The notes below the pieces were generated by a model. It searched no databases. It had not been told where the DNA came from and saw only the letters and a list, made by a program, of their open reading frames with translations. DNA of 64,000 nt from Mumia xiangluensis (lineage in GTDB: Bacteria; Actinomycetota; Actinomycetes; Propionibacteriales; Nocardioidaceae), in NCBI RefSeq assembly GCF_010994095.1, contig NZ_WJYO01000003.1, positions 62,001 through 126,000 on the forward strand, in the 5' to 3' direction. The translations under genes and the position numbers were made by a program. Positions 1 through 42,770 of the stretch are shown here, in pieces. Each line of letters opens with the position of its first letter. Position 1 is the stretch's first letter.

Positions 1-36
1 CATATGATGAAGGTCGCGACGGAGGGAAGGGACCCC

Positions 37-669
37 ATGGCGAAGGCACGTCAGGACAGCGAGGACACCCGGAGGCGCTTGCTCGACGCCGCGGACGTCG
101 TGCTGCGCGAGCGCGGCTACGCGGGCACATCGGCCCGTACGATCGCCTCCGAGGCCGGAGTCAACTCGGCGCTGGTCTTTTACCACTTCGGCGGCGTCGA
201 CCCGCTGCTGCTCGCGATGCTCGACCGGTCCTCGGAGGAGCGCATGGCGATGCACCGACGGACCGTCGCGGACGTCCGCACGGTCGAGGACCTCGTCGCC
301 GCGGCACGGCAGATCTATCGCGCCGACCTCGAACGCGGCTATCTGGCGCAGTTCAGCGAGATCGTCGGCGCAGCGCTGACGCGTCCCGAGCTGCGTGCCG
401 CGATCGTCGAGCGCGCGAACCCGTGGGTCGCCTTCGTCGAGGAGTGCTGGGAGCAGGTGACGGCGGGCTCCCCGCTCGGGCGGCTGCTCCCCGCGCGCGA
501 GGTCGCCCACGCTGCCATCACGTTCTACCTGGGCGTGAACCTGTTCTCGGTGATCGATCCCGACCAGTCGCGGACCGAGTCGGTGTTCGCGCTCGCCGGG
601 CGGATCGCGCCGCGCGCGAAGCTGCTGACCATGCGGCTCCCCCGCCGTACGCCCCGCGCCGGACGGTGA
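37..669 (+). CDS. TetR/AcrR family transcriptional regulator
   Basis: A 210-residue DNA-binding repressor-type protein. The first 60 residues hold the TetR helix-turn-helix: an Arg-rich helix 1, then 'TSARTIASEAGVNSALVFYHF', and the C-terminal two thirds is a divergent all-helical ligand/dimer domain. An in-frame ATG also lies at position 4, but GGAGG at 21-25 precedes the ATG at 37, and the latter gives the usual family N-terminus. The gene converges on the amidase gene with three bases between them, so control of the neighbouring nucleobase operon is possible but unproven. Ligand unknown. The family call is firm; the start is moderately sure. Confidence 0.88.
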   Translation: MAKARQDSEDTRRRLLDAADVVLRERGYAGTSARTIASEAGVNSALVFYHFGGVDPLLLAMLDRSSEERMAMHRRTVADVRTVEDLVAAARQIYRADLERGYLAQFSEIVGAALTRPELRAAIVERANPWVAFVEECWEQVTAGSPLGRLLPAREVAHAAITFYLGVNLFSVIDPDQSRTESVFALAGRIAPRAKLLTMRLPRRTPRAGR

Positions 670-672
670 CCG

Positions 673-2091
673 TCAGAGTGCAGGTCGAGGGCCGCCGGCG
701 CCGATGCCCGCGCCCGACACGGCCTCGTACGCCCGAGCGACCGCGAGCAGACGGCGCTCCGACCCAGCGGGGCCGACCAGCTGCACCCCGACCGGCAGAC
801 CGTCGGGCGTGAAGCCGGCCGGCACGCTGATCGCCGGACACCCCGTCACGGTGACGAAGAACGCCGATCGCATCCAGTCGAGGTACGACTCCTGCGGCCG
901 GCCGTTGATCGCGGCCGGGAACTCCTGGTCCGCAGGGAACGGCGGCACCTGGCTGACCGGCATCACCAGCACGTCGTAGGTCTCGAAGAACTCGCGCGCC
1001 TTCTCGGCGAGGGCCGAGCGCTGCGCGTACGCGACCGCGACGTCGTGACCGGACAGCGGCCGACCCGCACGGATGTTGTCGGCCAGCGACTGCTTGACCT
1101 CACCCGGGTGCGCATCGAGGACGTCGCCGAGGGCATACTCCATGAGCCACGCCCGCAGGGTCCGAAACGCCGCCTCCGCGTCCGGGAGGTCCGGCCACGC
1201 GTCGGCGACCACCGCGCCCGCGTCGGAGAGCTCTGCACGGGCGGTGCGGACGACGGCCGCGACCGCGGTGTCGACCTCGAACGCACCGCCGAGGTCGATC
1301 GAGAACGCCACCCGCAGACCGTCGAGCGAGACCGGTGCCGGATCCGCGAAGACGCCGCCCGGTGTCGAGTCGGCCGACGGCACCCGTGGATCCGGCCCGG
1401 CGAGGACGCTGAGCAGCAGGGCGAGGTCGTCGACGTCGCGGGCCAAGGGGCCTTGCACGGAGACCGTCTCCCACAGGTTCCACGTCGGCCAGGTCGGCAC
1501 ACGCCCCCAGCTCGGCCGCAGCCCGACGACGTTGCAGAACGACGCAGGGTTGCGCAGCGAGCCACCCATGTCCGACCCGTCGGCCAGCGCCACCATCCCG
1601 GACGCGAGCGCCGCAGCGGCCCCACCGCTCGACCCTCCGGCCGAGCGGCTGGTGTCGTACGGGTTGAGCGTCGTGCCGAAGACGGGGTTGAAGGTGTGCG
1701 AGCCGGCGGCGAACTCGGGCGTGTTGGACTTCGCCACGATCACGGCACCGGCGGCACGCACCCGCTCGACGACCAGGTCGTCGTACGTCGACACATGGTC
1801 AACCATCACCGGCGAGCCGAACGTGGTCCGCCACCCGGCGACGTGGTGGGTGTCCTTCACCGCGTACGGGAGCCCGTGCAGCGGACCGAGCCGGGCCCCC
1901 GACGCGGCGATGTCGTCCGCCTTGGCTGCCTGCACGTAGGCACGGTCGGCGTCGATCGACACCAGCGCGTTGACCGTGCCGTTCACCTGCTCGATCCGTG
2001 CGAGATGCAGGGCGAGCAGCTCCCGCGCGGAGATCTCCCGAGCAGCGACCGCAGCCGCCATCGCGCGAGCGCTGCTGTAGACGTCGATCAT
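673..2091 (-). CDS. Amidase (amidase signature family)
   Basis: A 472-residue amidase-signature hydrolase that would cleave a C-N amide bond. The Ser-cisSer-Lys triad is visible: Lys79 in 'YAVKDTHH', the Gly/Ser loop 'GGSSGGAAAA' near residues 152-161, and the nucleophile Ser178 in 'SDMGGSLR'. It is the last gene of a six-gene operon and its ATG overlaps the coxG-like stop by four bases (2088-2091). With a nucleobase permease and a molybdenum hydroxylase upstream, the substrate is probably a ring-opened amide or ureide. That substrate is inference; similar sequences are also annotated as aspartyl/glutamyl-tRNA amidotransferase A subunits, but no GatB or GatC lies nearby. Confidence 0.9.
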   Translation of the reverse strand: MIDVYSSARAMAAAVAAREISARELLALHLARIEQVNGTVNALVSIDADRAYVQAAKADDIAASGARLGPLHGLPYAVKDTHHVAGWRTTFGSPVMVDHVSTYDDLVVERVRAAGAVIVAKSNTPEFAAGSHTFNPVFGTTLNPYDTSRSAGGSSGGAAAALASGMVALADGSDMGGSLRNPASFCNVVGLRPSWGRVPTWPTWNLWETVSVQGPLARDVDDLALLLSVLAGPDPRVPSADSTPGGVFADPAPVSLDGLRVAFSIDLGGAFEVDTAVAAVVRTARAELSDAGAVVADAWPDLPDAEAAFRTLRAWLMEYALGDVLDAHPGEVKQSLADNIRAGRPLSGHDVAVAYAQRSALAEKAREFFETYDVLVMPVSQVPPFPADQEFPAAINGRPQESYLDWMRSAFFVTVTGCPAISVPAGFTPDGLPVGVQLVGPAGSERRLLAVARAYEAVSGAGIGAGGPRPAL

Positions 2092-2831
2092 CGCGAGCGA
2101 CGACCGAACAGGCTCCCGACCAGCACGCCCGCGAGGACGAGCGCTCCCCCGACGACAGCGCCGCGGAGGAAGTCGTCGTGGGAGCCCGTACGACGGGGTG
2201 CGCGCGGCGGAGCGGTGAAGCGTTCGCCGGGGGTGGTTTCGACTCGCTGCGCTCGCTCAACCAGCGGAGGGGCGGCGCCCTCAACCAGCGGAGGGGCGGC
2301 GCCCTCAACCAGCGGAGGGGCGGCGCCCTCAACCAGCGGAGGGGCGGCGGCCTCGGCCAGCGGAGGGGTGGCGCCCTCGGCCGGCGGGGGGCCGGCGGCG
2401 ATCGCGTCGTCGACAGCGCCGAAGAACTCGCCGGCCATCCGCTTGCTCACCGCCGCGAGCATGCGCTGACCGACGCCGCCGAGCATGCCCCCGACGATGG
2501 CGTCGGCGTCGTACCGGACGCCGGTCGTGCCGTCTCCTCGGTCGGCGAACCGCACCGCGACATCGGCGGCGACCGTGCCGCCCGCGCCTGCACCCTCGGC
2601 CCGCAGCACCAACGACTCGTGCGGGACGAGGTCGCTCAGCCGGCATGTGCCTGCGTACGTCCCGCGGATCGCAGCGACGCCGGCGTTCACCGTCATCGCG
2701 TACGCGTTGTCGCCCGTGGTCTCGAGCACCTCGCAGCCGGGGATGGTCCGCACGAGGACCCGAGGGTCGAGCAGCGCCTCCCAGACGGCATCGACGGGGG
2801 CGTTGAGCACGGCTTCTCCGGCTACCTTCAT
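2088..2831 (-). CDS. CoxG/SRPBCC-family protein with C-terminal membrane anchor
   Basis: A 247-residue protein. Residues 1-150 form an SRPBCC fold of the CoxG (CO dehydrogenase subunit G) type, starting 'MKVAGEAVLNAPVDAVWEAL'. Residues about 222-240 are a hydrophobic segment ending in basic residues, a probable membrane anchor. In aerobic CO dehydrogenase systems CoxG tethers the enzyme to the membrane or helps its maturation; here it would serve the adjacent hydroxylase. The linker at about 150-200 is built from tandem eight-residue units (EGAAPPLV) encoded by a 24-base minisatellite, followed by a copy of a genome-dispersed palindromic element read in frame. Four-base overlaps join it to both neighbours. 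Confidence 0.85.
   Translation of the reverse strand: MKVAGEAVLNAPVDAVWEALLDPRVLVRTIPGCEVLETTGDNAYAMTVNAGVAAIRGTYAGTCRLSDLVPHESLVLRAEGAGAGGTVAADVAVRFADRGDGTTGVRYDADAIVGGMLGGVGQRMLAAVSKRMAGEFFGAVDDAIAAGPPPAEGATPPLAEAAAPPLVEGAAPPLVEGAAPPLVEGAAPPLVERAQRVETTPGERFTAPPRAPRRTGSHDDFLRGAVVGGALVLAGVLVGSLFGRRSR
2235..2399. repeat. 24-bp minisatellite plus dispersed palindromic element inside coxG-like gene
   Basis: On the plus strand, 2235-2267 is a copy of the element found again at 42922-42953 (GGTTTCGACTCGCTGCGCTC followed by GCTCAACCAGCGG). From 2256 the motif CTCAACCAGCGG is amplified as six consecutive 24-base units (2256, 2280, 2304, 2328, 2352, 2376); the first three are nearly identical and the last two decayed. 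Twenty-four bases equal eight codons, so the host reading frame is kept. Confidence 0.9.
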
Positions 2832-5242
2832 GAGTCTCCCTCCACCGCGGCCACGGCCGCCTCGTCGGAACCTGCGTGCGTACGCCGCAGGTCGTACAGC
2901 TCGCTCGGCGAGATCGGCATCCGCGTGATCACGATGCCCTCGGCGTCCTCGATCGCCGAGGCGAACACCGCCGCGCTCGGGATCACGCCCGCCTCGCCGG
3001 CGCCCTTGATGCCGAGCGGGTTGAGCGGCGACGGTGTCTCGAGGTGGTCGACGTCGATCGTCTCCGGCACCTCGGTCACGTACGGCATGAGGAAGTCCAT
3101 GAACGACGCGTTGAGGAGCTGGCCGTGCTCGTCGTAGACCATGCGTTCGTACAGCGCGCCGCCCACGCCCTGGGCGACGCCACCGTGGATCTGTCCCTCG
3201 ACGATCATCGGGTTGATCAGTCGGCCGCAGTCGTGGACGACGGCGTACTTGAGGATGCGGATCTCAGCGGTGTCGGGATCGGTCTCGACGATCACGGCGT
3301 GCATGCCGGAGGCGAACGTCGAGCGCGGCGGCGAGTAGAAGTCGCGGCTCTCCAGACCGGGAGACGTCCCCTCGGGCACCGGCACCTTGTCGGGGTCGCC
3401 GACCGAGAACTGGGTCGCCGCCTTGCTCGCCTCGTCGAACGCGTAGCGCAGCGGGTTGCTCAGCACGGCGAGCGTGCCGAGGCTGATCTGCGCGCCCGGC
3501 GCACCCCGCACCTCGACGACGCCGTCACGGATCTCGAGGTCGTCGACGTTCGCCTCGAGCGCCTCGGCGGCGAGCTCGAGGGCCTTGCGTCGCACCGATC
3601 GTGCGGTCAGCGCGATCGCCGAACCGCTCATGACCGCCGCGCGCGAGGCGTACGTGCCGACGGCGTACGGCATGCGCCGGGTGTCGCCCGTGACGACCTC
3701 GACGTCCTCGAACCGCACCCCGAGCTCGTCGGCCACGATCTGCGCGAACACGGTCTGGTGGCCCTGTCCCTGGGTCGTCAGCCCGGTCGACACCTTGACC
3801 TTGCCGGTGGTCTCGACCTGGATGTGACCGCCCTCGTACGGGCCGACGCCCGTGCCCTCGACGTAGCAGGCGAGCCCGATCCCGACCCGGCGGCCCTCGG
3901 CGCGCATCTCGTCGCGGAAGGCCGCGAACTCGTCCCAGCCGACGAGGGCCTTGACCTTGTCGAGCATCTGCGGGAAGTCGCCCGAGTCGTAGATCAGCGG
4001 CTTGCCGTCCTGGAAGATCAGCCCCTGGTCGTACGGGAACTCGTCGGGCTGGATGAAGTTGGCCGCGCGCACCTCGGCCCGGTCCTTGCCCAGCGCCGCC
4101 GCGATCGCATCCATCGTGCGCTCCATCGCGTACACGCCCTGCGGGCGGCCGGCGCCACGGTACGGGGTGACGATGACGGTGTTCGTGTAGAGGCTGTGGA
4201 ACGTTGCCTTGTAGACCGGGGGCTTGTAGGGCCCGAGGAGCTGCGTGGTGGTGATGATGGGGACGATCAGGCCGTACGGGATGTAGGCGCCGTTGTCGTG
4301 CCAGATCTCGACGTCGAGCCCCAGGATGCGACCGTCGTCGTCGAAGCCGACCTCGACGTGCTGCTGCTGCGCCCGCTCGTGCGCGGCGGAGATGAAGTGC
4401 TCGCGGCGGTCCTCGGTGAACTTCACCGGCCGGCCGAGCGCCATCGCCGCCATCGGGACGAGGACCTCCTCGGGCCACGGGTGGACGACCTTGACGCCGA
4501 ACCCACCGCCTACGTCGGGCGTGATGACGTCGACGACGGACAGGTCGAGGCCGAGCTTCGCGGCGACCGCGGCGCGGACACCGGTGGAGGTCTGCGTGGA
4601 CGACCACACCTCGAGGCGACCGTTGTCGGTGTCCCACTTCGCGACCGTGCCGCGGCCCTCGAGCGGTGTGCACGCGCTCCGCTCGATGTCGAGGTCAAGC
4701 GCGAGACGGTGCGGAGCCCGCGAGATCGCCGCCATCGCGTCACCGGTCGCCTGCGTCGAGGTGGCAGCGAGGTTGCCCGGGACGTCGTCGTGGACCAGGT
4801 GGTCGGCGGCGCGGGCGGCGTCGAGCCCGACGACCGGCGGCAGGAACTCGTACGACACCACGATCCGGGCCGCGGCGTCCTCCGCGACGTAGCGGTCCAC
4901 CGCGACCACCATCGCGATCGCCTCGCCGACGTAGTTCACCTGGTCCTTCGCGAGGGCGTACTGGGTGCGGCCGTGGGTCAGGTCGGGGTGCGGGATGAGC
5001 AGCGGGAGAGGGTCCGCCATCGCGCCGGTGAGGTCCTCGTAGGTGTAGACGGCGACGACACCGTCCACGTCGAGGACGGCCTCGACGTCGATGTCGGTGA
5101 TGCGCGCGTGCGCGTGGGGCGAGCGGTGCAGCGCCACGTGCAGCGCGTCGGCCGCGAGGTCGTCGAGGTAGCGACCGCGGCCTCGCAGGAACCGCTCGTC
5201 CTCGACCCGAGCGACGCGCGCGCCGAACGCCTTGGTCGTCAC
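2828..5242 (-). CDS. Xanthine/CO dehydrogenase-type molybdopterin hydroxylase, large subunit
   Basis: An 804-residue molybdenum-cofactor subunit of the xanthine oxidase/CO dehydrogenase family. The N-terminal a/b hammerhead starts 'TTKAFGARVARVEDERFLRG', followed by the two Mo-binding domains. The active-site loop near residue 360 reads 'PYRGAGRPQG', the form II type, not the AYxCSFR loop of true CO dehydrogenase. The catalytic Glu is in 'GIKGAGEAGVIP' near residue 745. The GTG start at 5242 overlaps the small-subunit stop by four bases and gives the family's normal length; the frame runs open upstream but out of homology. It should hydroxylate a heterocycle or aldehyde-like substrate, electrons leaving via Fe-S and FAD subunits. 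The substrate is not readable from sequence; the permease context suggests a nucleobase. Confidence 0.92.
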   Translation of the reverse strand: MTTKAFGARVARVEDERFLRGRGRYLDDLAADALHVALHRSPHAHARITDIDVEAVLDVDGVVAVYTYEDLTGAMADPLPLLIPHPDLTHGRTQYALAKDQVNYVGEAIAMVVAVDRYVAEDAAARIVVSYEFLPPVVGLDAARAADHLVHDDVPGNLAATSTQATGDAMAAISRAPHRLALDLDIERSACTPLEGRGTVAKWDTDNGRLEVWSSTQTSTGVRAAVAAKLGLDLSVVDVITPDVGGGFGVKVVHPWPEEVLVPMAAMALGRPVKFTEDRREHFISAAHERAQQQHVEVGFDDDGRILGLDVEIWHDNGAYIPYGLIVPIITTTQLLGPYKPPVYKATFHSLYTNTVIVTPYRGAGRPQGVYAMERTMDAIAAALGKDRAEVRAANFIQPDEFPYDQGLIFQDGKPLIYDSGDFPQMLDKVKALVGWDEFAAFRDEMRAEGRRVGIGLACYVEGTGVGPYEGGHIQVETTGKVKVSTGLTTQGQGHQTVFAQIVADELGVRFEDVEVVTGDTRRMPYAVGTYASRAAVMSGSAIALTARSVRRKALELAAEALEANVDDLEIRDGVVEVRGAPGAQISLGTLAVLSNPLRYAFDEASKAATQFSVGDPDKVPVPEGTSPGLESRDFYSPPRSTFASGMHAVIVETDPDTAEIRILKYAVVHDCGRLINPMIVEGQIHGGVAQGVGGALYERMVYDEHGQLLNASFMDFLMPYVTEVPETIDVDHLETPSPLNPLGIKGAGEAGVIPSAAVFASAIEDAEGIVITRMPISPSELYDLRRTHAGSDEAAVAAVEGDS

Positions 5243-5757
5243 GCGTCGCCACCGCCTCGCTGCAGCTCCGCCGCCCGCAGCACCGACTTCACGATGTTCT
5301 GGTATCCGGTGCACCGGCACAGGTTGCCCGCGATCATCTCGCGTGCCGCCTCCGGCGTGGGGTCCGGGTCGTCGCGCAGCCCGGCGGTGATCGTGGTCAG
5401 GAACCCCGGTGTGCAGAACCCGCACTGCAGCCCGTGGCAGTCCTGGAACGCCTGCTGGACCGGGCCGAGCCGGTCGCCCTCCTCGGTCAGCCCCTCGACC
5501 GTGGTCAGCTCGGCGCCGTCCATCGAGACGGCGAGGAGCAGGCACGACCGCATCGGCTGTCCGTCGACGAGGATCGTGCACGCGCCGCACACACCGTGCT
5601 CGCAGCCGACGTGCGTGCCGGTGAGGCCGAGGTCGTGCCGCAACGCGTCGGAGAGCAGCCGGCGCGCCGGGATCTCGAGCGCGTACGCCGTGCCGTTGAC
5701 GATCAGCGACACGGCGTGCAGCGCGTCGGGTGCGGAGACCTGCGGCGGGGTCGTCAT
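5239..5757 (-). CDS. Molybdenum hydroxylase [2Fe-2S] small subunit (CoxS type)
   Basis: A 172-residue electron-transfer subunit with two [2Fe-2S] clusters. The N-terminal plant-type ferredoxin site is 'CEHGVCGACTILVDGQ' plus a Cys in 'MRSC'. The C-terminal four-helix site has 'CGFCTPGF' and 'CRCTGYQNI'. The ATG at 5757 overlaps the FAD-subunit stop (ATGA), and the stop overlaps the large-subunit GTG. Gene order FAD-small-large is the usual coxMSL order. Cytoplasmic side of the membrane by family knowledge. Confidence 0.94.
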   Translation of the reverse strand: MTTPPQVSAPDALHAVSLIVNGTAYALEIPARRLLSDALRHDLGLTGTHVGCEHGVCGACTILVDGQPMRSCLLLAVSMDGAELTTVEGLTEEGDRLGPVQQAFQDCHGLQCGFCTPGFLTTITAGLRDDPDPTPEAAREMIAGNLCRCTGYQNIVKSVLRAAELQRGGGDA

Positions 5758-6638
5758 CGGGCTCCTTGAGCGTCGGGGGCTGTCGCCCGGGTGTACGCGT
5801 CGCGGACGACGCGGCGGGTGAGGACACCCGAGAGGTGCCGGCGGTAGTCGGCGGTGCCGTGGATGTCGGCGTCCGGGTCGAGCGCGCCGGACGCGATCTC
5901 GGCCGCGGCGTCGAGGTTGCGGTCGCTCGCCGTGCCGTCGACGAACGCCTCCGACAGGTCGAGGACGTGCGGCGTCGGAGCGACGGCGAGGTACGAGGCG
6001 CGCACCGTCTCGATGGCTCCGTTCTCTCCCACGGAGACGACCGCCGCGACCCCGCACAGCGCGAAGTCGCCGTGCCTGCGGGCGATCTCGTCGATGGCCG
6101 TGCCGGTACGGGGCGGGTTCGCGGGGACCACCATCTCCAGCGCGAGCTCGTCGGAGCGAAGCGCCGACTCGAGCGGTCCGACGAAGAGGTCCGCCGCGTC
6201 GATCTCGCGGCGTCCGTCGACCGAGGCTGCGACCACCCGCGCACCGAGCAGCACGGCGACCGCGGGCATCTCGGCCGCCGGGTCGGCGTGGACGACCGAC
6301 CCCAGGGTCGTGCCGCGGTTGCGGATCGTCGGGTGCGCGACGAGCCGCAGCGCCTGCCGGAGCAGGGGCTGGGCCCGCCACGCATCCCCGTCGTCCTCGA
6401 CCTGGCGGTGCCGCGCGAGCGCACCGATGCGTACGCCGCTCTCGTCCGTCCGCACGAAGGCGAGCTCGCTCAGCCCGTTGATGTCGACGAGCGTGCTCGG
6501 CTGCGCGAGCCGCATCGACAGCAGCGGGACGAGGCTTTGACCGCCGGCGAGCACCTTCGCGTGCGGGTCGGCAGCGAGCGTCGCCAGCGCCTCATCGATC
6601 GTGGCGGGACGGACGTAGGAGAACGGCGCAGGCTTCAC
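5754..6638 (-). CDS. Molybdenum hydroxylase FAD-binding medium subunit (CoxM type)
   Basis: A 294-residue FAD subunit. It shows the two FAD contact motifs of the family: 'AGGQSLVPLLSMRL' near residue 31 and 'TLGSVVHADPAAEMPA' near residue 112, followed by the CO_deh_flav_C domain. It passes electrons from the [2Fe-2S] subunit to an acceptor. The start is a GTG at 6638 that overlaps the permease stop (GTGA), which fixes the start and implies translational coupling to the transporter. Confidence 0.93.
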   Translation of the reverse strand: MKPAPFSYVRPATIDEALATLAADPHAKVLAGGQSLVPLLSMRLAQPSTLVDINGLSELAFVRTDESGVRIGALARHRQVEDDGDAWRAQPLLRQALRLVAHPTIRNRGTTLGSVVHADPAAEMPAVAVLLGARVVAASVDGRREIDAADLFVGPLESALRSDELALEMVVPANPPRTGTAIDEIARRHGDFALCGVAAVVSVGENGAIETVRASYLAVAPTPHVLDLSEAFVDGTASDRNLDAAAEIASGALDPDADIHGTADYRRHLSGVLTRRVVRDAYTRATAPDAQGAR

Positions 6639-8023
6639 AGTGCTCTCGTCACCTCTTCTCCGCCCTCGTCGGTACGGCGCGTGCCGGGTCGTTTCCAGGC
6701 GACCAGGTGGTAGAAGACGATGACGACGATCGTGCCGAGCGCGATCCCCCCGAGCTGGAAGTCGTCGGAGAAGACGAGCGTGACGTTGCCGACGCCGATG
6801 ATGATGCCGGCAGCGAGCCCGACGATGTTGATCGGATCGCCGAAGTCGACACGGTTCTCGACCCAGATCTTGGCACCGACCAGGCCGATCATGCCGTACA
6901 GGACGACGGTGATGCCGCCGAGCACGCCGCCGGGGATCGCGTTGACGATCGCGCCGAACTTCGGGCAGAGGCCGAGGAGGATCGCGACGAGCGCCGCGAA
7001 GTAGTAGGCGGCGGTCGAGTAGATCCTGGTCGCCGACATGACGCCGATGTTCTCGGCGTACGTCGTGGTCGGAGAGCCGCCGAACGCGCTCGCGAACGCG
7101 GTGGCGAGACCGTCGGCGCCGATCGCGCGACCCATGTAGGGGTCGAGGTCGTCGCCGGTCATCTCCGCGACCGCCTTGACGTGACCGGTGTTCTCGGCGA
7201 TCAGGGCGATGACTCCCGGGAGCACGAGGAGGATGAAGGTCAGGCTGAAGCTCGGGCCGTGGACGACCGACACCCCGTCGGCGAGGTCTCCGGACGGGAA
7301 CCCGACCCAGTCCGCGGCCTCCACGGCGGCCCAGCTGACGCGGTCGTGCGCGACCTCCTCGCCGGCGGCAGGCACGAAGGACGTGATCGGGCCGAACACC
7401 ACATCGGCGAGCCACGAGACGACGTAGCCGAAGATCAGCGCGAGCAGGACCGCGATGCGTCCCCAGAAGCCTGGAAGCAGCACCGCCGCCGCGACCATGA
7501 CGCCCGCCGTGAGCAGCGCGATCCACTGGTCCTGGGGCCAGTAGACGCCGGCGACGACCGGCGCGAGGTTGAAGCCGATCAGCATGACGACCGCGCCGGT
7601 CACCGCCGGAGGGAGGAGCTTGTGCAGGAACGACGTGCCTGCGAAGTGCACGGCGACGCCCACGACCGCCAGCACCAGACCAGCGACGAGGATGGCGCCG
7701 GTGACGTCGGCGGAGTCACCTCCCTGGCTTCGGATCGCGGCGACCGCTGCGACGAACGAGGCGCTCGTGCCGAGGTAGCTCGGGACCATGTTGTTGGTGA
7801 TGAGCAGGAACATGATCGTGCAGATGCCCGAGAAGAGGATGGCGAGGTTCGGGTCGAGCCCCATCACCACCGGGAAGACGAACGTCGCACCGAACATCGC
7901 CACCACGTGCTGCGCGCCGAGCCCCGCCGTACGCCCCCAGCTCAGGCGTTCGCGCGGTCCGACCGCCTCTCCGGGTGGCGGCGTCCTGCCGTCGTGCACC
8001 ACGTCCCACTTGAACATCGACAT
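6635..8023 (-). CDS. NCS2-family nucleobase permease (UraA/PyrP-like)
   Basis: A 462-residue polytopic membrane protein with about 12-14 hydrophobic segments. The NCS2/NAT signature 'SPTTTYAENIGVMSATR' lies near residue 321. The family imports uracil, xanthine or uric acid with protons; the TTYAEN form is typical of the uracil-type branch, though specificity cannot be fixed here. The start chosen at 8023 follows GAGGAG at a six-base distance; a longer frame to 8131 has no homology. It is the first gene of the six-gene operon. A perfect dyad at 8116-8134 and a -10 TAGGGT at 8091-8096 lie upstream. Confidence 0.93.
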   Translation of the reverse strand: MSMFKWDVVHDGRTPPPGEAVGPRERLSWGRTAGLGAQHVVAMFGATFVFPVVMGLDPNLAILFSGICTIMFLLITNNMVPSYLGTSASFVAAVAAIRSQGGDSADVTGAILVAGLVLAVVGVAVHFAGTSFLHKLLPPAVTGAVVMLIGFNLAPVVAGVYWPQDQWIALLTAGVMVAAAVLLPGFWGRIAVLLALIFGYVVSWLADVVFGPITSFVPAAGEEVAHDRVSWAAVEAADWVGFPSGDLADGVSVVHGPSFSLTFILLVLPGVIALIAENTGHVKAVAEMTGDDLDPYMGRAIGADGLATAFASAFGGSPTTTYAENIGVMSATRIYSTAAYYFAALVAILLGLCPKFGAIVNAIPGGVLGGITVVLYGMIGLVGAKIWVENRVDFGDPINIVGLAAGIIIGVGNVTLVFSDDFQLGGIALGTIVVIVFYHLVAWKRPGTRRTDEGGEEVTRAL

Positions 8024-8090
8024 CCCGGTCTCCTCAGAGTGTGCGAGCGGCCGCCGGGGGTTCGGGCAGCGCACCCGGTCCAATGACGCG

Positions 8091-8134
8091 ACCCTAGTGG
8101 CGGCGCGGAGCCCCCGGCATGGTGCGAACATGCC
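8091..8134 (-). promoter_or_regulatory. Candidate activator-dependent promoter of the permease-hydroxylase operon
   Basis: On the minus strand a CACTAGGGT element gives a -10 TAGGGT (8091-8096), with transcription start near 8084. Upstream lies a perfect 19-base dyad, GGCATG-N7-CATGCC (8116-8134), centred near -41, where class II activators bind. No good -35 hexamer is visible. PucR, encoded immediately upstream, is the obvious candidate binder; that is inference. Confidence 0.5.
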
Positions 8135-8170
8135 AACTGCCCCCGTGTCGCGCTGGCAGCCCTTGCTCGG

Positions 8171-9862
8171 TCACTCCCTCATGTGCAGGATCTGCAGCGC
8201 GACGGCGACGTCGAGCCGGATCTGCGGGTCGGTGCTGAAGCGTCCCAGGATCGTCTCGAGCTTGGTCACCCGGTAGCGCATCGTGTTGTAGTGGAAGTGC
8301 TGCGAGCGAGCCGCCTCGGCGACGTTGAGGTTCACGTCCAGCAGCACCTGCAGCGTGGCCCGAAGGTCAGCGGCGGCGGGAGTGTCGTCCGCGAGCGGCC
8401 CGAGCACCTCGGTGACGAACTCGGCGAGCTCGCCCTGGTCCTCGACCTGCGAGAGCAGGCGGCGTACGCCGAGCCGGTCGAAGTAGGTCGTCGAGCTGTT
8501 CCCCTTCATGCGCCGGCCGACGTCGACCGCCTTGTGAGCCCGCGCGTACGCGTCGGGGAGCCGCTCGACCCCGGCGACGACCCGGCTGATCCCTGCCGAG
8601 AACGGGCGCCGCCCGCCGCCCGAGTCACCGCGGACGGCGGCCAGCGCCTCCTCGACGACGTCCACGACGTCCGAGCCGTCGGGGCTCACGGGGAGCAGCG
8701 CGACCACCTGGGACGAGAAGTCCGCCACGGCGATGGACCGCCCGCGGCGCTCCACGACCTGGCGCCACGCCGCGGCGAAGCGGTCCTGGAACCCACGGCG
8801 CGTACGGCTCGACACCACGGGCTCGTCGGCGCCCGGCGGGTCGAGCTCGGCGACCACGACGACGAGCGGCCGGTCGATGTCCCACCCGAGACTCTCGGCG
8901 TGCTCGATGACGTACTGAGGACTCTCGGCCCGCCCCGTCAGCACGTCGCGGAGGAAGTCGCCGCGGTACTTGCCTTCGACGGCGACCACCGCCTGCAGCC
9001 GCGTGATGTGCAGCGCGGCGACGGTGGCCGCCCGCTCGAGCGCGTAGACGTCGGTCGCCTGCAGGGTCCGCTTCTCGCTGACCACGACCAACCGGGCGAG
9101 CTCGGTGCCGGACGCCGCGACGTGCAGGGCCCGGATCTCTCCCGCGCCGAACGGTCGCGACCGGCGCATGCGTTCGACCCGGATCCGTCCGGAGACGTCG
9201 AGGAACTCGCTCACCTCGAGGCTGGCGCGGAGCTCGTCGCTCAGCGCCCCCGCCCACTCGCGTCCGTCGGTCGAGGTCACGATGACGCCGATGTCGAGCA
9301 CCTTCGACACCTCCGCGGCGATCTGCTCGAGGTCGCCGCCCTCGAGGACGATCAGGGTGAGCGCCGCGTGGAGGGCGTCGATCTGCGCGAGGACTCGTGA
9401 CTGGAAGGTGTTGAGCGCCGCGTAGCCGTCCTTGAGGACGTCGTCGAACGCCACGTCCTCCGGGATCTGCACGATCGGGAACCCCAGCTCGTCGGCCAGG
9501 GCGACCACGCTCTCGGGAACCTCGTCGACGTACCGGCCGAGCTTGATGGCGAAGCCGGCCGCACCCGCGTCGTACAGGCCCTGGACCAGTGCCTCCGTGC
9601 GAGGCACGTCGAGGCGCCGCGAGCTGTCGAGAAGCGGGAAGCCGGTGGTGACGAGCAGCTCGTTCCGCTTGACCCACGCGAGGACGTCCGGCACCTCCAT
9701 GACGTTCAGGCCGGTCACGGTGCGGTGGCTCCCGGTGTGACCGGCGAGCATCTTCGACCCTTGGAGGGCGTCGACAGCGATGACGTCGGCGAGCGGGAGC
9801 CCGTGCGCGTCTGATGTCAGGTTCTGGGCCGGATCGGATCCATCGTTGGCAAGTCTCGCCAT
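8171..9862 (-). CDS. PucR-family transcriptional regulator
   Basis: A 563-residue regulator with the PucR architecture: an N-terminal purine-catabolism domain (about 20-150, containing 'GLNVMEVPDVLAWVKRNELL'), a central GGDEF-like/CdaR region, and a C-terminal helix-turn-helix 'NLNVAEAARSQHFHYNTMRY' near residue 515. In Bacillus PucR activates purine-degradation genes in response to allantoin-type metabolites. The gene sits between the permease-hydroxylase operon and the divergent oxamate-carbamoyltransferase operon, so it probably controls both. A -10 TACGGT ends six bases before the ATG, so the message is probably leaderless. Confidence 0.92.
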   Translation of the reverse strand: MARLANDGSDPAQNLTSDAHGLPLADVIAVDALQGSKMLAGHTGSHRTVTGLNVMEVPDVLAWVKRNELLVTTGFPLLDSSRRLDVPRTEALVQGLYDAGAAGFAIKLGRYVDEVPESVVALADELGFPIVQIPEDVAFDDVLKDGYAALNTFQSRVLAQIDALHAALTLIVLEGGDLEQIAAEVSKVLDIGVIVTSTDGREWAGALSDELRASLEVSEFLDVSGRIRVERMRRSRPFGAGEIRALHVAASGTELARLVVVSEKRTLQATDVYALERAATVAALHITRLQAVVAVEGKYRGDFLRDVLTGRAESPQYVIEHAESLGWDIDRPLVVVVAELDPPGADEPVVSSRTRRGFQDRFAAAWRQVVERRGRSIAVADFSSQVVALLPVSPDGSDVVDVVEEALAAVRGDSGGGRRPFSAGISRVVAGVERLPDAYARAHKAVDVGRRMKGNSSTTYFDRLGVRRLLSQVEDQGELAEFVTEVLGPLADDTPAAADLRATLQVLLDVNLNVAEAARSQHFHYNTMRYRVTKLETILGRFSTDPQIRLDVAVALQILHMRE

Positions 9863-9868
9863 CGGCTC

Positions 9869-9891
9869 ACCGTAGCGAACGCTCCTACGCT
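9869..9891. promoter_or_regulatory. Divergent leaderless promoters of pucR and allH
   Basis: Only 35 bases separate the two start codons. Minus strand: TACGGT at 9869-9874, with its last T seven bases from the pucR ATG at 9862. Plus strand: TACGCT at 9886-9891, with its last T seven bases from the allH ATG at 9898. Both imply transcription starting at the A of ATG, and each -35 region would lie inside the other gene. Confidence 0.6.
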
Positions 9892-9897
9892 GGCGCC

Positions 9898-10698
9898 ATG
9901 GTCGCGACGATCACATCGCGGGCCGATGCCGCCCGATCCGTCGGTCCTCGGCGCGACGCGCATCCAACCGCTGCCACCGCAGAGGTCGCCGCCCGGCTGC
10001 ACGGGCCGCGGCGGACGGCCGAGATCGTCCACCGCAGCAGGCACGCGGTGTACGTCCGCGACGCCGAGCGCTGCCTCGCCGTGGTCGCCCGCGACGCGGT
10101 CGCCGTACCCTGCGGACTGCTCACCACGTGGCCCGACCTCGACGGCGTCCGCACCGTCGTGCTCGGGGAGGGCCAGTGCGTCGTCGACGGTCGCGCGCTG
10201 CGGGTCACCCGCTACGTCGAGGCGTGCGTCGCCGTCCGGCCCGACGGCCTCACCGACGATCTCCCCCGCACCGCGCTGCTCTCCGCGGTCGCCACCAACC
10301 TTCCCGGCGGCACGACCGCGTACGACCGCCTCGGCGGCGACGATCCACGCGCCGTCGATGCCCTGCTCGGACGCGGCCCCGGCCTGACACCACTCGGCGA
10401 CGACGTCCTTGCGGGGTGGCTCGTCACCCGGTACGCCGCCGGTGCGCGGGGCGGCCAGGTGGCCGACCGAGTCCTCGCGGTGGCCTCGACCCGTACGACC
10501 ACGGTCTCCGCGACGCTGCTCGCCCACGCCGTCCGGGGCGAGGCCGTGCCCGAGCTGCGCGCCCTGGTCGACGGGCTCGGTGACGCCGGCACGGACGAGC
10601 GCCTCTCCGACCTGCTCCGCGTGGGGCACACCTCTGGCGCCGGGCTCGCGCTCGGCGTCGCCCTCGCCGTACGCCGTCCTGCGACCGTCGCCGCGTGA
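9898..10698 (+). CDS. allH: DUF2877 protein, oxamate carbamoyltransferase subunit AllH-like
   Basis: A 266-residue DUF2877 protein. The family hallmark 'GRGPGLTPLGDDVLAGW' is present near residue 160. In E. coli the equivalent YlbF/AllH works with FdrA and YlbE in the oxamate carbamoyltransferase that ends allantoin degradation. Here the same three families are adjacent, which supports the assignment. The start at 9898 was chosen over an upstream in-frame ATG at 9814 because a leaderless -10 lies just before it and the upstream stretch would overlap pucR. The gene is followed after 19 bases by the FdrA gene. Confidence 0.82.
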   Translation: MVATITSRADAARSVGPRRDAHPTAATAEVAARLHGPRRTAEIVHRSRHAVYVRDAERCLAVVARDAVAVPCGLLTTWPDLDGVRTVVLGEGQCVVDGRALRVTRYVEACVAVRPDGLTDDLPRTALLSAVATNLPGGTTAYDRLGGDDPRAVDALLGRGPGLTPLGDDVLAGWLVTRYAAGARGGQVADRVLAVASTRTTTVSATLLAHAVRGEAVPELRALVDGLGDAGTDERLSDLLRVGHTSGAGLALGVALAVRRPATVAA

Positions 10699-10717
10699 CC
10701 TCGATCCAAGGAGTCCC

Positions 10718-12244
10718 ATGACCGACCACGTCAGCCTCCGCTCCGGCGCGTACGCCGACTCGGTGACCCTGCTCCAGGTGAGCAAGCAGGTCGCCGCAAC
10801 CCCCGGCGTACGCGAGGCCCAGGTCGCGATGGCGACGCCGCTCAACCTCGAGACCCTCGCGGTGATGGGGTTCGACGTGCCGGCCGACGCGTCGCCGAAC
10901 GACATGGTGGTGGCGCTGCGTCTCGAGAGCGCATCCCTCGACGACGCGATGGCCGCGGTCGACGCCGCGCTCGCCGCCGCGAGCGCACCCCGCGCGTCGG
11001 GGGACACGTCGGTAGCTCCCCCGCGGACCACGGCGAGCGCGCTGCGCGACGCTCCTGCGGGCACGATCGTGATGGTGTCCGTGCCTGGACCGTCCGCGTT
11101 CGTCGAGGCCATGGACGCGGTCGAGGCCGGGCACGACGTGATGGTGTTCAGCGACAACGTGCCGCTGGAGCAGGAGGTCGCGCTGAAGGAGGCCGCAGCC
11201 GCGCGCGACGTCCTCGTCATGGGTCCCGACTGCGGCACCGCGGTCGTCGGAGGTGTCGGGCTGGGCTTCGCCAACGTGGTGCGTCCCGGTCCGATCGGCA
11301 TCGTCGCCGCGTCCGGGACCGGCACCCAGCAGGTGCTCGCGCTGCTCGACCAGGTCGGCGTCGGCGTCAGCGCGGCGCTCGGCGTGGGCGGACGCGACCT
11401 CTCGGCGGCGGTCGGCGGTCGATCCACCCGTACGGCGCTGGCCAGGCTCGACGCCGACCCGCAGACGACGCACGTGGTGCTGGTGTCCAAACCACCAGCG
11501 GCCGAGATCGCCGACGGGATCACCGCGTACGCGGCGTCGCTGTCGGTCCCGGTCGAGCTCGCGCTGCTCTCCCCCGACACCGACCTCACCGGGCGCACGG
11601 AGGCGCTGCTCGCCAGCCTCGACCTGCCGGCAGCACCCTGGCGGCGATGGGGCGAGCCCGAGGAGGCGGGCGGACCCGGCGCGCTCCGAGGCCTGTTCGT
11701 GGGCGGCACGCTGTGCGACGAGGCGATGCTGATCGCATCCGCCACGCTCGGCGAGATCCGCAGCAACATCCCGCTCGCGGGCGGCGACGCGCTCGATGCC
11801 GCCGCCGTGCTGGCCGGCGACCTCGGCGACGCGCACGCGATGATCGACTTCGGCGACGACGCCCTCACCGTCGGCCGGGCGCATCCCATGATCGACCCGA
11901 GCCTTCGCCTGGCGGCGCTCGCGCGTACCGCGGCCGATCCCGCCACGGCCGTCGTCCTGCTTGACGTGGTCCTGGGCCACGGCGCGGAGCCCGACCCCGC
12001 AGCCGCTCTCGCGCCCGCCATCGCCGACGCCCGCGCCGTCGCGGTGGCCGAGCACGGCCGTACGCTCCCCGTCGTCGTCACCCTCGTCGGCACCGCGGCC
12101 GACCCGCAGGACCTCGAGCGACAGGCGGCAGCGCTCGTCTCCGCCGGGGCGTACGTCTTCTCGTCCAACGCCGAGGCGACCCGGCACGCCGTCGCGCTGA
12201 CCGCCGTGCCCGCGCCCGTCCCGACCGCAGGAGAGCTCCGATGA
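10718..12244 (+). CDS. fdrA: FdrA-like protein, oxamate carbamoyltransferase subunit
   Basis: A 508-residue FdrA-family protein, which resembles two succinyl-CoA-synthetase alpha (CoA-binding/ligase) modules. Visible motifs include 'VMGPDCGTAVVGG' near residue 168, 'ASGTGTQQVL' near 205, and the family signature 'VGRAHPMIDPSLRL' near 390. The start follows AAGGAG at 10708-10713. Its stop overlaps the next ATG (ATGA, 12241-12244). The family is established as part of oxamate carbamoyltransferase (carbamoyl phosphate plus oxamate interconverting with oxalurate). No carbamate kinase is in the window to use the product. Confidence 0.87.
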   Translation: MTDHVSLRSGAYADSVTLLQVSKQVAATPGVREAQVAMATPLNLETLAVMGFDVPADASPNDMVVALRLESASLDDAMAAVDAALAAASAPRASGDTSVAPPRTTASALRDAPAGTIVMVSVPGPSAFVEAMDAVEAGHDVMVFSDNVPLEQEVALKEAAAARDVLVMGPDCGTAVVGGVGLGFANVVRPGPIGIVAASGTGTQQVLALLDQVGVGVSAALGVGGRDLSAAVGGRSTRTALARLDADPQTTHVVLVSKPPAAEIADGITAYAASLSVPVELALLSPDTDLTGRTEALLASLDLPAAPWRRWGEPEEAGGPGALRGLFVGGTLCDEAMLIASATLGEIRSNIPLAGGDALDAAAVLAGDLGDAHAMIDFGDDALTVGRAHPMIDPSLRLAALARTAADPATAVVLLDVVLGHGAEPDPAAALAPAIADARAVAVAEHGRTLPVVVTLVGTAADPQDLERQAAALVSAGAYVFSSNAEATRHAVALTAVPAPVPTAGELR

Positions 12245-13635
12245 CTGCCGCACCCACCGTCGTCACCGTCGGTACGAGCCTGCTCGCCGACGCGATCGAC
12301 GACCAGGCCGTCTCCGCCCGTCGCGTCGACTGGCAGCCGCCGGTGCCGGGGACCGCCGACGACCTCGCCACCGTTGCCGCCGACCCCTTGCGGGCAGCGG
12401 CGAACGCCAGGGCCGTCGACGCCTACCTCGGCGTCACCGCCCAGCTCGTCGACGTCCTTCCTGCCTCCGAGGCGCTCGGACTCCGGCCTGGCGACTTCCT
12501 CCACGCCGGCCCGCCGATCACCTGGGAGCGGGCGTCCGGGCCGATGCGCGGCGCGCTGATGGGCGCCGCGGCCTTCGAGGGGATCGTCGCCGACGCCGAG
12601 GAGGCACCTGCCTTCTTCGAGTCCGGGGCCGGCTACACGCTCGACCCCTGCCACCACCACCATGCCGTCGGCCCGATGGCCGGGATCATCTCGCCGTCGA
12701 TGTGGGTGTTCGTGCTGGAGGACGCCTCCACCGGCGCACGCACGTACTGCTCGCTCAACGAGGGGCTCGGCAAGGTGCTCCGCTACGGGGCGTACTCCGA
12801 GGACGTGCTCGCGCGGCTCCGTTGGATGTCGTCGGTCCTCGGGCCCGTCCTGCAGCGGGCCGTGCGGGCCGCGGGTCCGGTCGACATCACCGCGCTCCTG
12901 GCGCAGATGCTCCAGATGGGCGACGAGGCCCACAACCGCAACCGAGCGGGCACGCTCATGCTGCTGCGCGACCTGGTGCCGGCGATGATCCGCTCGGGTT
13001 CGCGGGCCGGCGACGTGGCCGACGCGGTCGCGTTCGTCGGCGGCAACGACCACTTCTTCCTCAACCTCGCCATGCCCGCCTGCAAGCTCGCCCTCGACGC
13101 CGCCCGAGACATCGAGGGCTCCACGATGGTGGTCGCGATGGCACGCAACGGCACGGACTTCGGCATCCAGGTGTCGGGCACCGGTGACCAGTGGTTCACC
13201 GGGCCGGCGCAGGTCGCCGACGGCCTGTACCTCGGGTCGTACGGTCCCGACGACGCCAACCCCGACATCGGGGACTCGGCCATCACGGAGACGGCGGGGA
13301 TCGGCGGGTTCGCGATGGCGACCGCGCCCGCGATCGTCCGGCTGGTCGGCGGCTCGGTGCCGGACGCGCTCGCGACGACGCGGAGGATGGGCGAGATCGC
13401 GCTCGCCGAGAACCCGCGCTGGACGATCCCGGTCCTGGAGTTCGCGGGGACGCCGACCGGCATCGACGTCGCCCGCGTGTGCCGGACGGGGATCCTGCCG
13501 CAGATCAACACCGGCATGGCGGGCCGCGTCGCCGGCACGGGCCAGGTCGGCGCCGGACTCGTGACCCCACCTGCGGAGATCTTCCCGGCCGCGCTCGCGG
13601 CGCTGGCCGAGCGCGCCCGACGTCGCGCTCGCTGA
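12241..13635 (+). CDS. allG: DUF1116 protein, oxamate carbamoyltransferase subunit AllG-like
   Basis: A 464-residue DUF1116 (YlbE) protein. The characteristic His-rich stretch 'CHHHHAVGPMAGIISPSMW' lies near residue 138, and 'RAGTLMLLRDLVPAMIRSG' near 237. It is translationally coupled to the FdrA gene by a four-base overlap and completes the AllF-AllG-AllH set, in the order H-F-G. By analogy with E. coli these three form one carbamoyltransferase; the biochemical role of each subunit is less clear. Confidence 0.85.
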   Translation: MTAAPTVVTVGTSLLADAIDDQAVSARRVDWQPPVPGTADDLATVAADPLRAAANARAVDAYLGVTAQLVDVLPASEALGLRPGDFLHAGPPITWERASGPMRGALMGAAAFEGIVADAEEAPAFFESGAGYTLDPCHHHHAVGPMAGIISPSMWVFVLEDASTGARTYCSLNEGLGKVLRYGAYSEDVLARLRWMSSVLGPVLQRAVRAAGPVDITALLAQMLQMGDEAHNRNRAGTLMLLRDLVPAMIRSGSRAGDVADAVAFVGGNDHFFLNLAMPACKLALDAARDIEGSTMVVAMARNGTDFGIQVSGTGDQWFTGPAQVADGLYLGSYGPDDANPDIGDSAITETAGIGGFAMATAPAIVRLVGGSVPDALATTRRMGEIALAENPRWTIPVLEFAGTPTGIDVARVCRTGILPQINTGMAGRVAGTGQVGAGLVTPPAEIFPAALAALAERARRRAR

Positions 13636-13699
13636 CCCCGCCGGGTCGGTGTCGGGGCGTACCCCAAGACCGGTGACCTAAACTCTCGACCTTCGTGGA

Positions 13700-14692
13700 G
13701 TGGCTTCTTACCATCTCGCCATGGGGACCTTTCGCACACCTCGCCCGGACGCCTTTCTCGTGGGCGCACCCAAGGCAGGCACCAGTGCGCTGCATGCCGC
13801 ACTCGCCGTCCATCCGCAGGTGTACTCGAGCCGACCCAAGGAGCCGAAGTACTTCATGTGCGCCGACGCCCCGCCGCCGGCGTACCGCGGCCCGGGCGAC
13901 GCCCACAGCCAGCGCGAGTGGATCTGGCGTCGTGAGGACTACGAGCAGCTGTTCGCCGACGCGCGGGGCGACCAGCTGCGCCTCGAGAGCACGCCGTTCT
14001 ACCTGTACCTGCGCAACGCCCGACGGCGGATCACCGAGGAGCTCCCCGACGCGCGGCTGGTGGCCGTCGTCCGCGACCCGGTCGACCGCGCCTACTCGAA
14101 CTGGATGCATCTGTGGTCGGACGGCCTCGAGCCCGTCAGCGACTTCGTGGACGCCTTCGGGCGTGAGGAGGAGCGCATCGCCGCGGGCTGGGCGCCGTTC
14201 TGGCACTACCGGCGGCTCGGCATGTACGGAGCCCAGCTGGACGACCTCTACCGGCACGCGGACAGCGACCGGATCCTGGTCCTGCGCTACCGCGAGCTGG
14301 TGGAGAAGCCCGTCGACACCCTCGACCGCGTCTGCGTGTTCCTCGGCCTCGAACCCGGACTCGTCCGCGAGATCCCCCGCGACAACTCACGGCCGTACGT
14401 CGCTCCCGGCTGGCGCCGCGACATCGGCGCACGTGTCGTCCGGGCGGGTGCCCGCGCCGGTGCGCTGACCCATCCCTCGCTGTGGCGCCGTGCCAGCCGG
14501 CCGCTCCTGTCGGCGATGCAGTGGCGCAGCCCCGCCGTACGCCCGAAGCTCGATCCTGCCGAGCGGGCCGCGCTCATCGACCACTACCGCGAGGACATCG
14601 ACCTCCTCGAGAAGGTGACCGGCCAGTCGTTCGACGACTGGCGCAACGAGGAGAGCGGCGGGTCGTTCGCCAGCCGCGCCGGCACCGCGTGA
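13700..14692 (+). CDS. Sulfotransferase family protein
   Basis: A 330-residue PAPS-dependent sulfotransferase. The 5'-phosphosulfate loop 'VGAPKAGTSALHAAL' lies near residue 22 and the 3'-phosphate site 'RDPVDRAYSNWMH' near 124. Such enzymes sulfate glycans, lipids or small molecules in the cytoplasm. A GTG at 13700 and an ATG at 13721 are both possible starts; TAAACT at 13679-13684 could be the -10, giving a very short leader. The gene converges on the beta-propeller gene 15 bases away. Acceptor unknown. Confidence 0.85.
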   Translation: MASYHLAMGTFRTPRPDAFLVGAPKAGTSALHAALAVHPQVYSSRPKEPKYFMCADAPPPAYRGPGDAHSQREWIWRREDYEQLFADARGDQLRLESTPFYLYLRNARRRITEELPDARLVAVVRDPVDRAYSNWMHLWSDGLEPVSDFVDAFGREEERIAAGWAPFWHYRRLGMYGAQLDDLYRHADSDRILVLRYRELVEKPVDTLDRVCVFLGLEPGLVREIPRDNSRPYVAPGWRRDIGARVVRAGARAGALTHPSLWRRASRPLLSAMQWRSPAVRPKLDPAERAALIDHYREDIDLLEKVTGQSFDDWRNEESGGSFASRAGTA

Positions 14693-42086: not shown

Positions 42087-42770
42087 GTGCCGGGCCTCCC
42101 CGGCGTGCGAGAGGAGTCCGTCATCGCCACCGCGATCACCCCGCAGAGCTGGCTGTACGCCGAGGAGTTCGTCGTCGAGGACGAGCACCTGCAGAACGCG
42201 CGCGCCCGTGCGGACGAGGTGGGCGTGGCACCGATCGGACCCGGTGGCGGAGCCGCACTGCGGCTGCTCGCCGCGGTCGCCAACGCCGGTGCCGTCGTCG
42301 AGGTCGGCACGGGCACCGGGGTCTCCGGGTTGTGGCTGCTGCGCGGCATGCGTGCCGACGGCGTGCTCACGTCGGTCGACCGCGAGGCCGAGCACCAACG
42401 GCTCGCACGAGCGACGCTGACCGAGGCAGGCATCGCCGCCAACCGTTTCCGCCTCATCTCCGGTTCCGCCCTCGAGGTGCTCCCCCGTCTGGCCGACGGG
42501 GGGTACGACCTGGTGTTCGTCGACGCGGACAAGCGCGACTACCCCCAGTTCGTCGACGAGGCCGTCCGTCTCCTGCGCCCCGGCGGGGTCCTCGCGTTCG
42601 ACAACGCCCTGTGGCACGACCGTGTGGCCGACCCCGCCCGTCGGGACGAGGACACCGTCGCAGTCCGCGACCTCGGTCGCACGCTCCTCGAGGACGAGCG
42701 GTTCCTGCCGGCCCTGCTGCCGGTCGGCGACGGGCTCCTGGTCGCGCAGCTGGCCATCACCGCTGGTTGA
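42087..42770 (+). CDS. Class I SAM-dependent O-methyltransferase (Rv1220c-like)
   Basis: A roughly 215-227-residue O-methyltransferase of the caffeoyl-CoA/catechol type. Motif I is 'VVEVGTGTGVSGLW' and the metal-binding motif 'LVFVDADKRDYPQF'. Rv1220c occupies the same place beside sigE in M. tuberculosis. The start is unclear: GTG at 42087 is the conventional choice, but the best ribosome site (GAGAGGAG, 42109-42116) sits six bases before an ATC at 42123, which would give the N-terminus seen in relatives. The last codons and the TGA come from the first copy of the 42761 repeat. Confidence 0.87.
   Translation: MPGLPGVREESVIATAITPQSWLYAEEFVVEDEHLQNARARADEVGVAPIGPGGGAALRLLAAVANAGAVVEVGTGTGVSGLWLLRGMRADGVLTSVDREAEHQRLARATLTEAGIAANRFRLISGSALEVLPRLADGGYDLVFVDADKRDYPQFVDEAVRLLRPGGVLAFDNALWHDRVADPARRDEDTVAVRDLGRTLLEDERFLPALLPVGDGLLVAQLAITAG

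Follow-up and report, generated by a model that had tools for sequence, protein, structure and literature searches.

Two adjoining operons of Mumia xiangluensis as candidate parts of an oxidative pyrimidine degradation pathway via barbiturate

We analysed a stretch of 64,000 nucleotides from the 4.62-Mb genome of Mumia xiangluensis (positions 62001-126000 of contig NZ_WJYO01000003.1, here C3), which we refer to as the window, and focused on two operons at its left end: one encodes a nucleobase permease, a three-subunit molybdenum (Mo) hydroxylase, a CoxG-like protein, and an amidase, and the other a carbamoyltransferase of the AllFGH type. Our reading, to which we assign a probability of about 0.7, is that these operons provide for uptake, oxidation, and carbamoyl transfer when pyrimidines are degraded oxidatively via barbiturate, a route in which the AllFGH-type complex and a carbamate kinase would conserve ATP. 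Coordinates are those of the window unless they are preceded by C3.

The first operon occupies the minus strand and contains, in the order of transcription, an NCS2 nucleobase permease (6635-8023), the FAD subunit (5754-6638) and the 2Fe-2S subunit (5239-5757) of the Mo hydroxylase, the Mo-cofactor large subunit (2828-5242), a CoxG-like protein (2088-2831; PF06240), and an amidase-signature amidase of the PRK07486 subfamily (673-2091; 480.5 bits, cut-off 465). As the preliminary description of this DNA had reported, all five junctions are 4-base ATGA or GTGA overlaps, and a gene for a PucR-family regulator (8171-9862, minus strand) stands between the two operons, 147 bp upstream of the permease start. 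The second operon runs on the plus strand, divergent from pucR across a 35-bp gap, and brings together the three oxamate carbamoyltransferase families: an AllH-like subunit (9898-10698; DUF2877, PF11392, 78.1 bits), an AllF/FdrA-like subunit (10718-12244), and an AllG-like subunit (12241-13635; DUF1116, PF06545, 331.2 bits). The spacing between allH and fdrA is 19 bp, and fdrA and allG overlap by 4 bases. The Amidase, CoxG, Mo large-subunit, 2Fe-2S, FAD, Xan_ur_permease, PucR, AllH, Ligase_CoA (FdrA), and AllG domains all score over their Pfam cut-offs. Among NCBIfam models, the permease fits RutG best (355.3 bits, cut-off 758.65) and then the general NCS2 and uracil permease models, but it stays under the cut-off of each.

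Both operons are real as first described, and the gene set continues to the left of the window. About 13-15 kb beyond the window edge lie a carbamate kinase gene (C3:48339-49298) and a barbiturase-family gene on the minus strand (C3:47182-48342; PF09663 match at C3:47191-48273), whose frame begins within the carbamate kinase stop codon through a 4-base ATGA overlap. It is the single PF09663 gene found in a search of the whole genome. Between this pair and the window sits a HyuA/HyuB-like pair (C3:52.2-56.5 kb, which corresponds to positions 10223-14502 of our locus L009), related to caprolactamase and acetophenone carboxylase and scoring below the cut-offs for both. In this genome and in those of two same-genus relatives, the interval between the amidase gene and hyuA contains some extra TetR, AMP-ligase, and phosphotriesterase-like genes.

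The PF09663 gene is predicted from its sequence to encode a barbiturase that converts barbiturate to ureidomalonate. Over 368 residues, its product shares 83.7% identity with PDB entry 5hwe ("Barbiturase"), which is itself 100% identical to a gene of Rhodococcus erythropolis NBRC 15567, and it scores 671 bits against the characterised barbiturase versus 323.5 bits against the best cyanuric acid hydrolase. According to PMC3758960, five residues (Asn194, His324, Lys328, Val348, and Ser/Ala349 in Bar numbering) set barbiturases apart from cyanuric acid hydrolases, and R. erythropolis JCM 3132 falls in the characterised barbiturase group. All five are present in the M. xiangluensis gene (N194, H324, K328, V348, and S349; group VI of AtzD/Bar). 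When plasmids were searched with this barbiturase, 132 records matched, and all but two of these (130) fell short of 60% identity.

From sequence and gene context we infer the following steps. The NCS2 permease would take up uracil and perhaps thymine, and the three-subunit Mo hydroxylase would oxidise them to barbiturate or 5-methylbarbiturate. The barbiturase encoded outside the window would open the barbiturate ring to ureidomalonate, and HyuA/HyuB may act as a second, ATP-dependent ring-opening hydrolase. The AllFGH-type complex would then cleave ureidomalonate by phosphorolysis to carbamoyl phosphate and malonamate, from which the carbamate kinase would produce ATP, NH3, and CO2 and the amidase would free the last nitrogen, leaving malonate; PucR probably controls both operons. 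In R. erythropolis a hydrolytic version would operate instead, in which barbiturase and an amidase acting as ureidomalonase lead to urea, so that in M. xiangluensis the AllFGH-type transcarbamylase and carbamate kinase would replace or bypass the ureidomalonase. We propose that the window amidase is either a malonamate amidase or a ureidomalonase. The preliminary description had the hydroxylase and amidase feed an oxalurate-type product to the carbamoyltransferase, with oxamate at the end. The idea of a nucleobase system that ends in an acylurea for AllFGH is retained; the acylurea, however, is likely ureidomalonate made by the barbiturase, the amidase probably acts after the carbamoyltransferase rather than before it, and malonamate would take the place of oxamate as the product.

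The association of these genes was examined in 245 genomes of the order and 326 genomes of the phylum. For the Mo subunit, the stricter E-value limits of 1e-250 and 1e-230, respectively, were applied, and only the top few candidates per genome were scored. In the order sample, NF040766, the NCBIfam family of the window large subunit, was found in 58 genomes, PF09663 in 59, and AllG in 69 (61 of these 69 with coordinates, the other 8, with AllG only, being counted through totals). All 58 genomes with NF040766 carry PF09663 and AllG, while among the other 187 there is one with PF09663 (G241, whose gene is divergent) and 11 with AllG; AllG is thus present in 59 of 59 PF09663 genomes. The Mo subunit and AllG share one contig in 56 of the 58, 5.3-14.8 kb apart and always on opposite strands, and the Mo subunit and barbiturase do so in 56 of the 58, 7.1-30.6 kb apart, with a shared strand in 55 cases. 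Rare co-occurrence of the two operons had been named at the outset as the observation that would speak against a joint system, and these counts point the other way. In the phylum sample, PF09663 is found in 23 genomes, AllG in 41, NF040766 in 25, and all three in 17; the remainder have NF040766 and AllG (5), NF040766 and PF09663 (3), PF09663 and AllG (1), PF09663 alone (2), or AllG alone (18). Fisher tests of co-occurrence, which ignore kinship, give p values all below 1e-13. Because it recurs across the phylum, the association of these genes is not due to chance.

Gene order is conserved as well. Near-continuous clusters are found in the relatives represented by loci L033, L034, L149+L150, and L151+L152. 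In L034 and in the same-genus relatives (L149+L150 and L151+L152) the order is allG-fdrA-allH, then divergently pucR, NCS2, the M, S, and L subunits, CoxG, amidase, hyuA, hyuB, carbamate kinase, and barbiturase; this order also holds in L033 and L032, except that pucR was not detected in either and allH not in L033. Across eight regions from families f19, f42, and f50 (L015-L022), the Mo subunits, FdrA, and amidase or HyuA lie close together, with carbamate kinase in seven (not in L020) and barbiturase in seven (in L017 it lies just past the region end). Among the best 80 barbiturase loci, of which 16 extend for under 9 kb on the upstream side of the barbiturase, 73 have a carbamate kinase gene as the immediate upstream neighbour in the same orientation, with a gap of at most 149 bp (tblastn edges). 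The seven without it come from Rhodococcus/Rhodococcoides (4), Arachnia (1), and Streptosporangiaceae (2). Within flanks of up to 10 kb, these 80 loci show a Mo subunit in 20 and any AllFGH subunit in 4.

Two families depart from this arrangement. The f12 genomes with NF040766 (G276, G379, and G401) possess AllG and have no PF09663 match, and in loci L138 and L139, from two of them, the genes for the Mo subunits, HyuAB, FdrA, and AllG follow one another, an arrangement suggesting that HyuAB can open the ring. Family f53 has the Mo subunit, a barbiturase-like gene of 40-42% identity, and an amidase, without AllG; in its locus L027 the barbiturase-like gene has one signature residue out of five, so the substrate of that enzyme is unsure. 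Extending our reading, we consider it an even chance that a phosphorolytic branch of oxidative pyrimidine catabolism exists across several classes of Actinomycetota, in which a distinct AllFGH clade would be a ureidomalonate (N-carbamoylmalonamate) transcarbamylase yielding, with carbamate kinase, ATP and not urea, NF040766 proteins would be uracil/thymine dehydrogenases, and HyuAB would open a ring at the expense of ATP, either that of 5-methylbarbiturate or, in lineages that have no barbiturase, that of barbiturate itself.

Two further loci were recorded beside these. L030 (5050-14731) joins a divergent PF09663 gene to E. coli-type FdrA and AllG, two carbamate kinases, and two amidohydrolases; its PF09663 gene has two of the five signature residues and its AllG falls with that of E. 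coli. It was not counted as the same pathway and is possibly another ring-opening pathway that uses AllFGH. L031 (1329-13736), from a 2.5-Mb genome, has a barbiturase next to FdrA and AllG, a thiolase-like gene, and a Mo hydroxylase of another kind (29% identity, motif PYRGFGY).

Uracil/thymine dehydrogenase and ureidomalonase activities have reportedly been measured in R. erythropolis. This organism uses pyrimidines (PMC3961730, citing Soong 2002), and the oxidative pathway, in which pyrimidines are converted to barbiturate and then by barbiturase and ureidomalonase to malonate and urea, is attributed to Soong et al. 2001 and 2002 in PMC3758960. The R. erythropolis locus comprises two pucR and two NCS2 genes, barbiturase, an amidase (PRK07486, 712.9 bits), Mo subunits, CoxG, hyuA, and hyuB. 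It resembles the M. xiangluensis set in its NF040766 large subunit (1401.3 bits), NCS2 permeases, PucR, CoxG, hyuAB, and PRK07486 amidase. The Mo enzyme of R. erythropolis is the natural candidate for the pyrimidine-oxidising step and, by family, so is that of the window, whose large subunit becomes a candidate catalytic subunit of uracil/thymine dehydrogenase. Soong et al. 2001/2002 or Seffernick 2012 may contain an earlier description of the genes around the Rhodococcus barbiturase. An additional gene at this locus, in the interval between the amidase and the second permease, is a class III aminotransferase-like gene (L035, 12768-13991).

M. xiangluensis possesses both AllFGH and carbamate kinase. 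Neither was found in the R. erythropolis loci L035 and L126, and whole-genome searches for AllG in ten named genomes were positive in seven; the three negatives are R. erythropolis, R. fascians, and Rhodococcus sp. IEGM 1409. The best copies in six of the positives score 314.6-329.2 bits, and R. koreensis has two distant copies (250.8 and 244.9 bits), one of which adjoins an amidase match 54% identical to the window amidase (L129, from about 5238-7597 onwards).

The AllFGH-type complex has the same three subunit families, with a carbamate kinase, as E. coli AllFGH and AllK (PMC11326118). Local identities to E. coli AllF, AllG, AllH, and AllK are 38.2, 47.8, 36.6 (over 101 residues only), and 44.2%, respectively. 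It differs in being barbiturase-associated, in an FdrA subunit below the cut-off of the curated NCBIfam FdrA model PRK06091 (381 bits against 433), and in an AllG that belongs to a separate supported group. In the AllG tree (45 rows, 42 of them distinct and some partial, with L014 and L125 dropped as copies of the window and of E. coli and with four long rows of unsure place), a branch with values of 94/88, not starred, separates the 24 barbiturase-associated rows from the rest, and a group with values of 97/97 unites them with L031 and the two rows from f12, whereas E. coli AllG is placed apart with three others at 100/100. The E. coli complex acts on oxalurate (PMC11326118). By chemical analogy, phosphorolysis of ureidomalonate to carbamoyl phosphate and malonamate would be a small step from this known reaction, because oxalurate and ureidomalonate are both terminal-carboxylate acylureas that differ by one CH2. 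A comparable logic is known from Rubrobacter, in which a ureidoglycine carbamoyltransferase and a carbamate kinase replace a ureido-hydrolase; that transcarbamylase is ATCase-like, from another family, and serves purine catabolism (PMC4016543). In PMC12625717 allFGH is mentioned beside triuret genes, and "barbitur" does not occur there. Among the matches listed by our searches of a library that lacks most subscription journals, no title or abstract opening connects AllFGH with barbiturate or gives the Mo enzyme a function.

Several other readings of the operons were weighed. The one closest to ours keeps the oxidative pyrimidine pathway with its classical hydrolytic end, in which the amidase would be the ureidomalonase that produces malonate and urea, and AllFGH and carbamate kinase would serve another acylurea such as oxalurate. 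In its favour, the window amidase and the barbiturase-adjacent amidase of R. erythropolis both score over the PRK07486 cut-off, family f53 has the Mo subunit, a barbiturase-like gene, and an amidase without AllG, and urease is present in some cluster-bearing genomes. Against it, AllG and carbamate kinase track barbiturase in the 59 order genomes and the 73 loci given above, AllG is missing from R. erythropolis and its two near relatives, the cluster AllG stands apart from that of E. coli, and no urease alpha match was found in the M. xiangluensis genome; we regard this reading as unlikely. A purine or ureide route, in which hydroxylase and amidase make oxalurate for an oxamate carbamoyltransferase, draws on the known roles of PucR and AllFGH in purine and allantoin catabolism and on the identities to E. 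coli AllF, AllG, and AllH. The absence of xdhABC, urate oxidase, and allantoinase, stated in the preliminary description, holds for the window only; elsewhere in the genome, on contig C4, a uricase gene adjoins one for OHCU decarboxylase (allantoinase was not searched), so that purine-route genes are encoded outside the window. Furthermore, the large subunit scores 422.3 bits against the XdhA model, far below the xanthine dehydrogenase cut-off of 780. Because barbiturase is the constant partner and the uricase lies elsewhere, the purine/allantoin route was rejected as the principal interpretation and appears quite improbable.

The NCBIfam name of the large subunit, "CODH_aero_grp5", raises the reading of an aerobic CO dehydrogenase of group 5 with unrelated neighbours. 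The score (1514.7 bits, cut-off 950) and the adjacent CoxG are in line with it, and by this score the window protein does belong with form II or "group 5" CoxL. However, in place of the form I active-site motif AYXCSFR it has PYRGAGR, at residue 360; of 40 loci in which the large subunit could be aligned, 37 have PYRGAGR and none has a cysteine, though some genomes are represented more than once and the set contains one paralogue (L011) as well as the distant Mo enzyme of L031. Form I, with the cysteine motif, has been validated for CO, and the activity of form II is described as unresolved in PMC13240472. The CO dehydrogenase reading was rejected on the active-site motif and, with the tight linkage to barbiturase and nucleobase transport, has very little probability left. 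Cyanuric acid or another barbiturate-like ring as the real substrate has in its favour that the ring-opening gene also exceeds the NCBIfam cyanuric acid hydrolase cut-off (480.2 bits against 360). It is disfavoured by the full set of signature residues and by the 83.7% identity with the barbiturase of R. erythropolis, and cyanuric acid breakdown is not known to require a Mo hydroxylase; we give it hardly any weight.

Some observations do weigh against the barbiturate pathway as we propose it. In M. xiangluensis itself, the carbamate kinase and barbiturase genes lie 13-15 kb off the operon with other genes intervening. The substrate of the carbamoyltransferase is assigned from context and chemical analogy, the E. 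coli complex being one that acts on oxalurate. The amidase has two candidate roles, and HyuAB, conserved in both variants, has a role that is not secure. The co-occurrence counts are not phylogenetically independent, and among the 25 phylum genomes with the Mo subunit, five have AllG without PF09663 (G257, G272, G276, G379, and G401; some fragmented) and three, all from f53, have PF09663 without AllG. The f19 permease of L015 is nearer to the xanthine permease model (244.3 bits, below the cut-off of 414.15). Finally, urease does not separate the hydrolytic and AllFGH variants: in a search of 80 genomes, it was found in all four Rhodococcus-type genomes, strongly in 8 and marginally in 1 of the 34 cluster-bearing genomes of family f1, which do not differ in this from the cluster-less ones (5 of 18), strongly in 4 and marginally in 1 of the 16 phylum genomes that bear the cluster, in one of four named AllFGH-variant genomes, and marginally in one of three f53 genomes, with G170 negative.

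Scans of window positions 1-14000 gave no sigma-70 promoter (shuffle mean 0.3) and one terminator-like site (shuffle mean 1.6). The 3' half of coxG contains a 24-bp tandem repeat of 5.9 copies (2256-2397), whose edge matches a repeat element also arrayed at 42761-42978; its 16-base core has 22 matches in the window with up to 3 mismatches, against 2.4 expected. In the array, recorded as spanning 42761-43027, CGCTGGTTGAGCGAGC recurs in seven exact copies, of which six lie on the plus strand and one on the minus strand, beside two imperfect copies. Its appearance is that of a dispersed palindromic element.

Oxidative breakdown of pyrimidines has been on record since the 1950s, and no sequences are known to be assigned to its uracil/thymine dehydrogenase and ureidomalonase activities. 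The pathway has been called rare (PMC3758960), and our analysis ties it to a gene set found across many actinobacterial genera. The gene content, the co-occurrence, the signature residues, and the AllG grouping that we observed, together with the reactions predicted from them, move the reading of these operons from purine and oxamate to pyrimidine and barbiturate, and offer candidate genes for both activities. A curated "CO dehydrogenase" family may be misnamed, which would affect genome-based estimates of CO oxidation, and the AllFGH transcarbamylase family may have a second role in the recovery of ATP from pyrimidine nitrogen.

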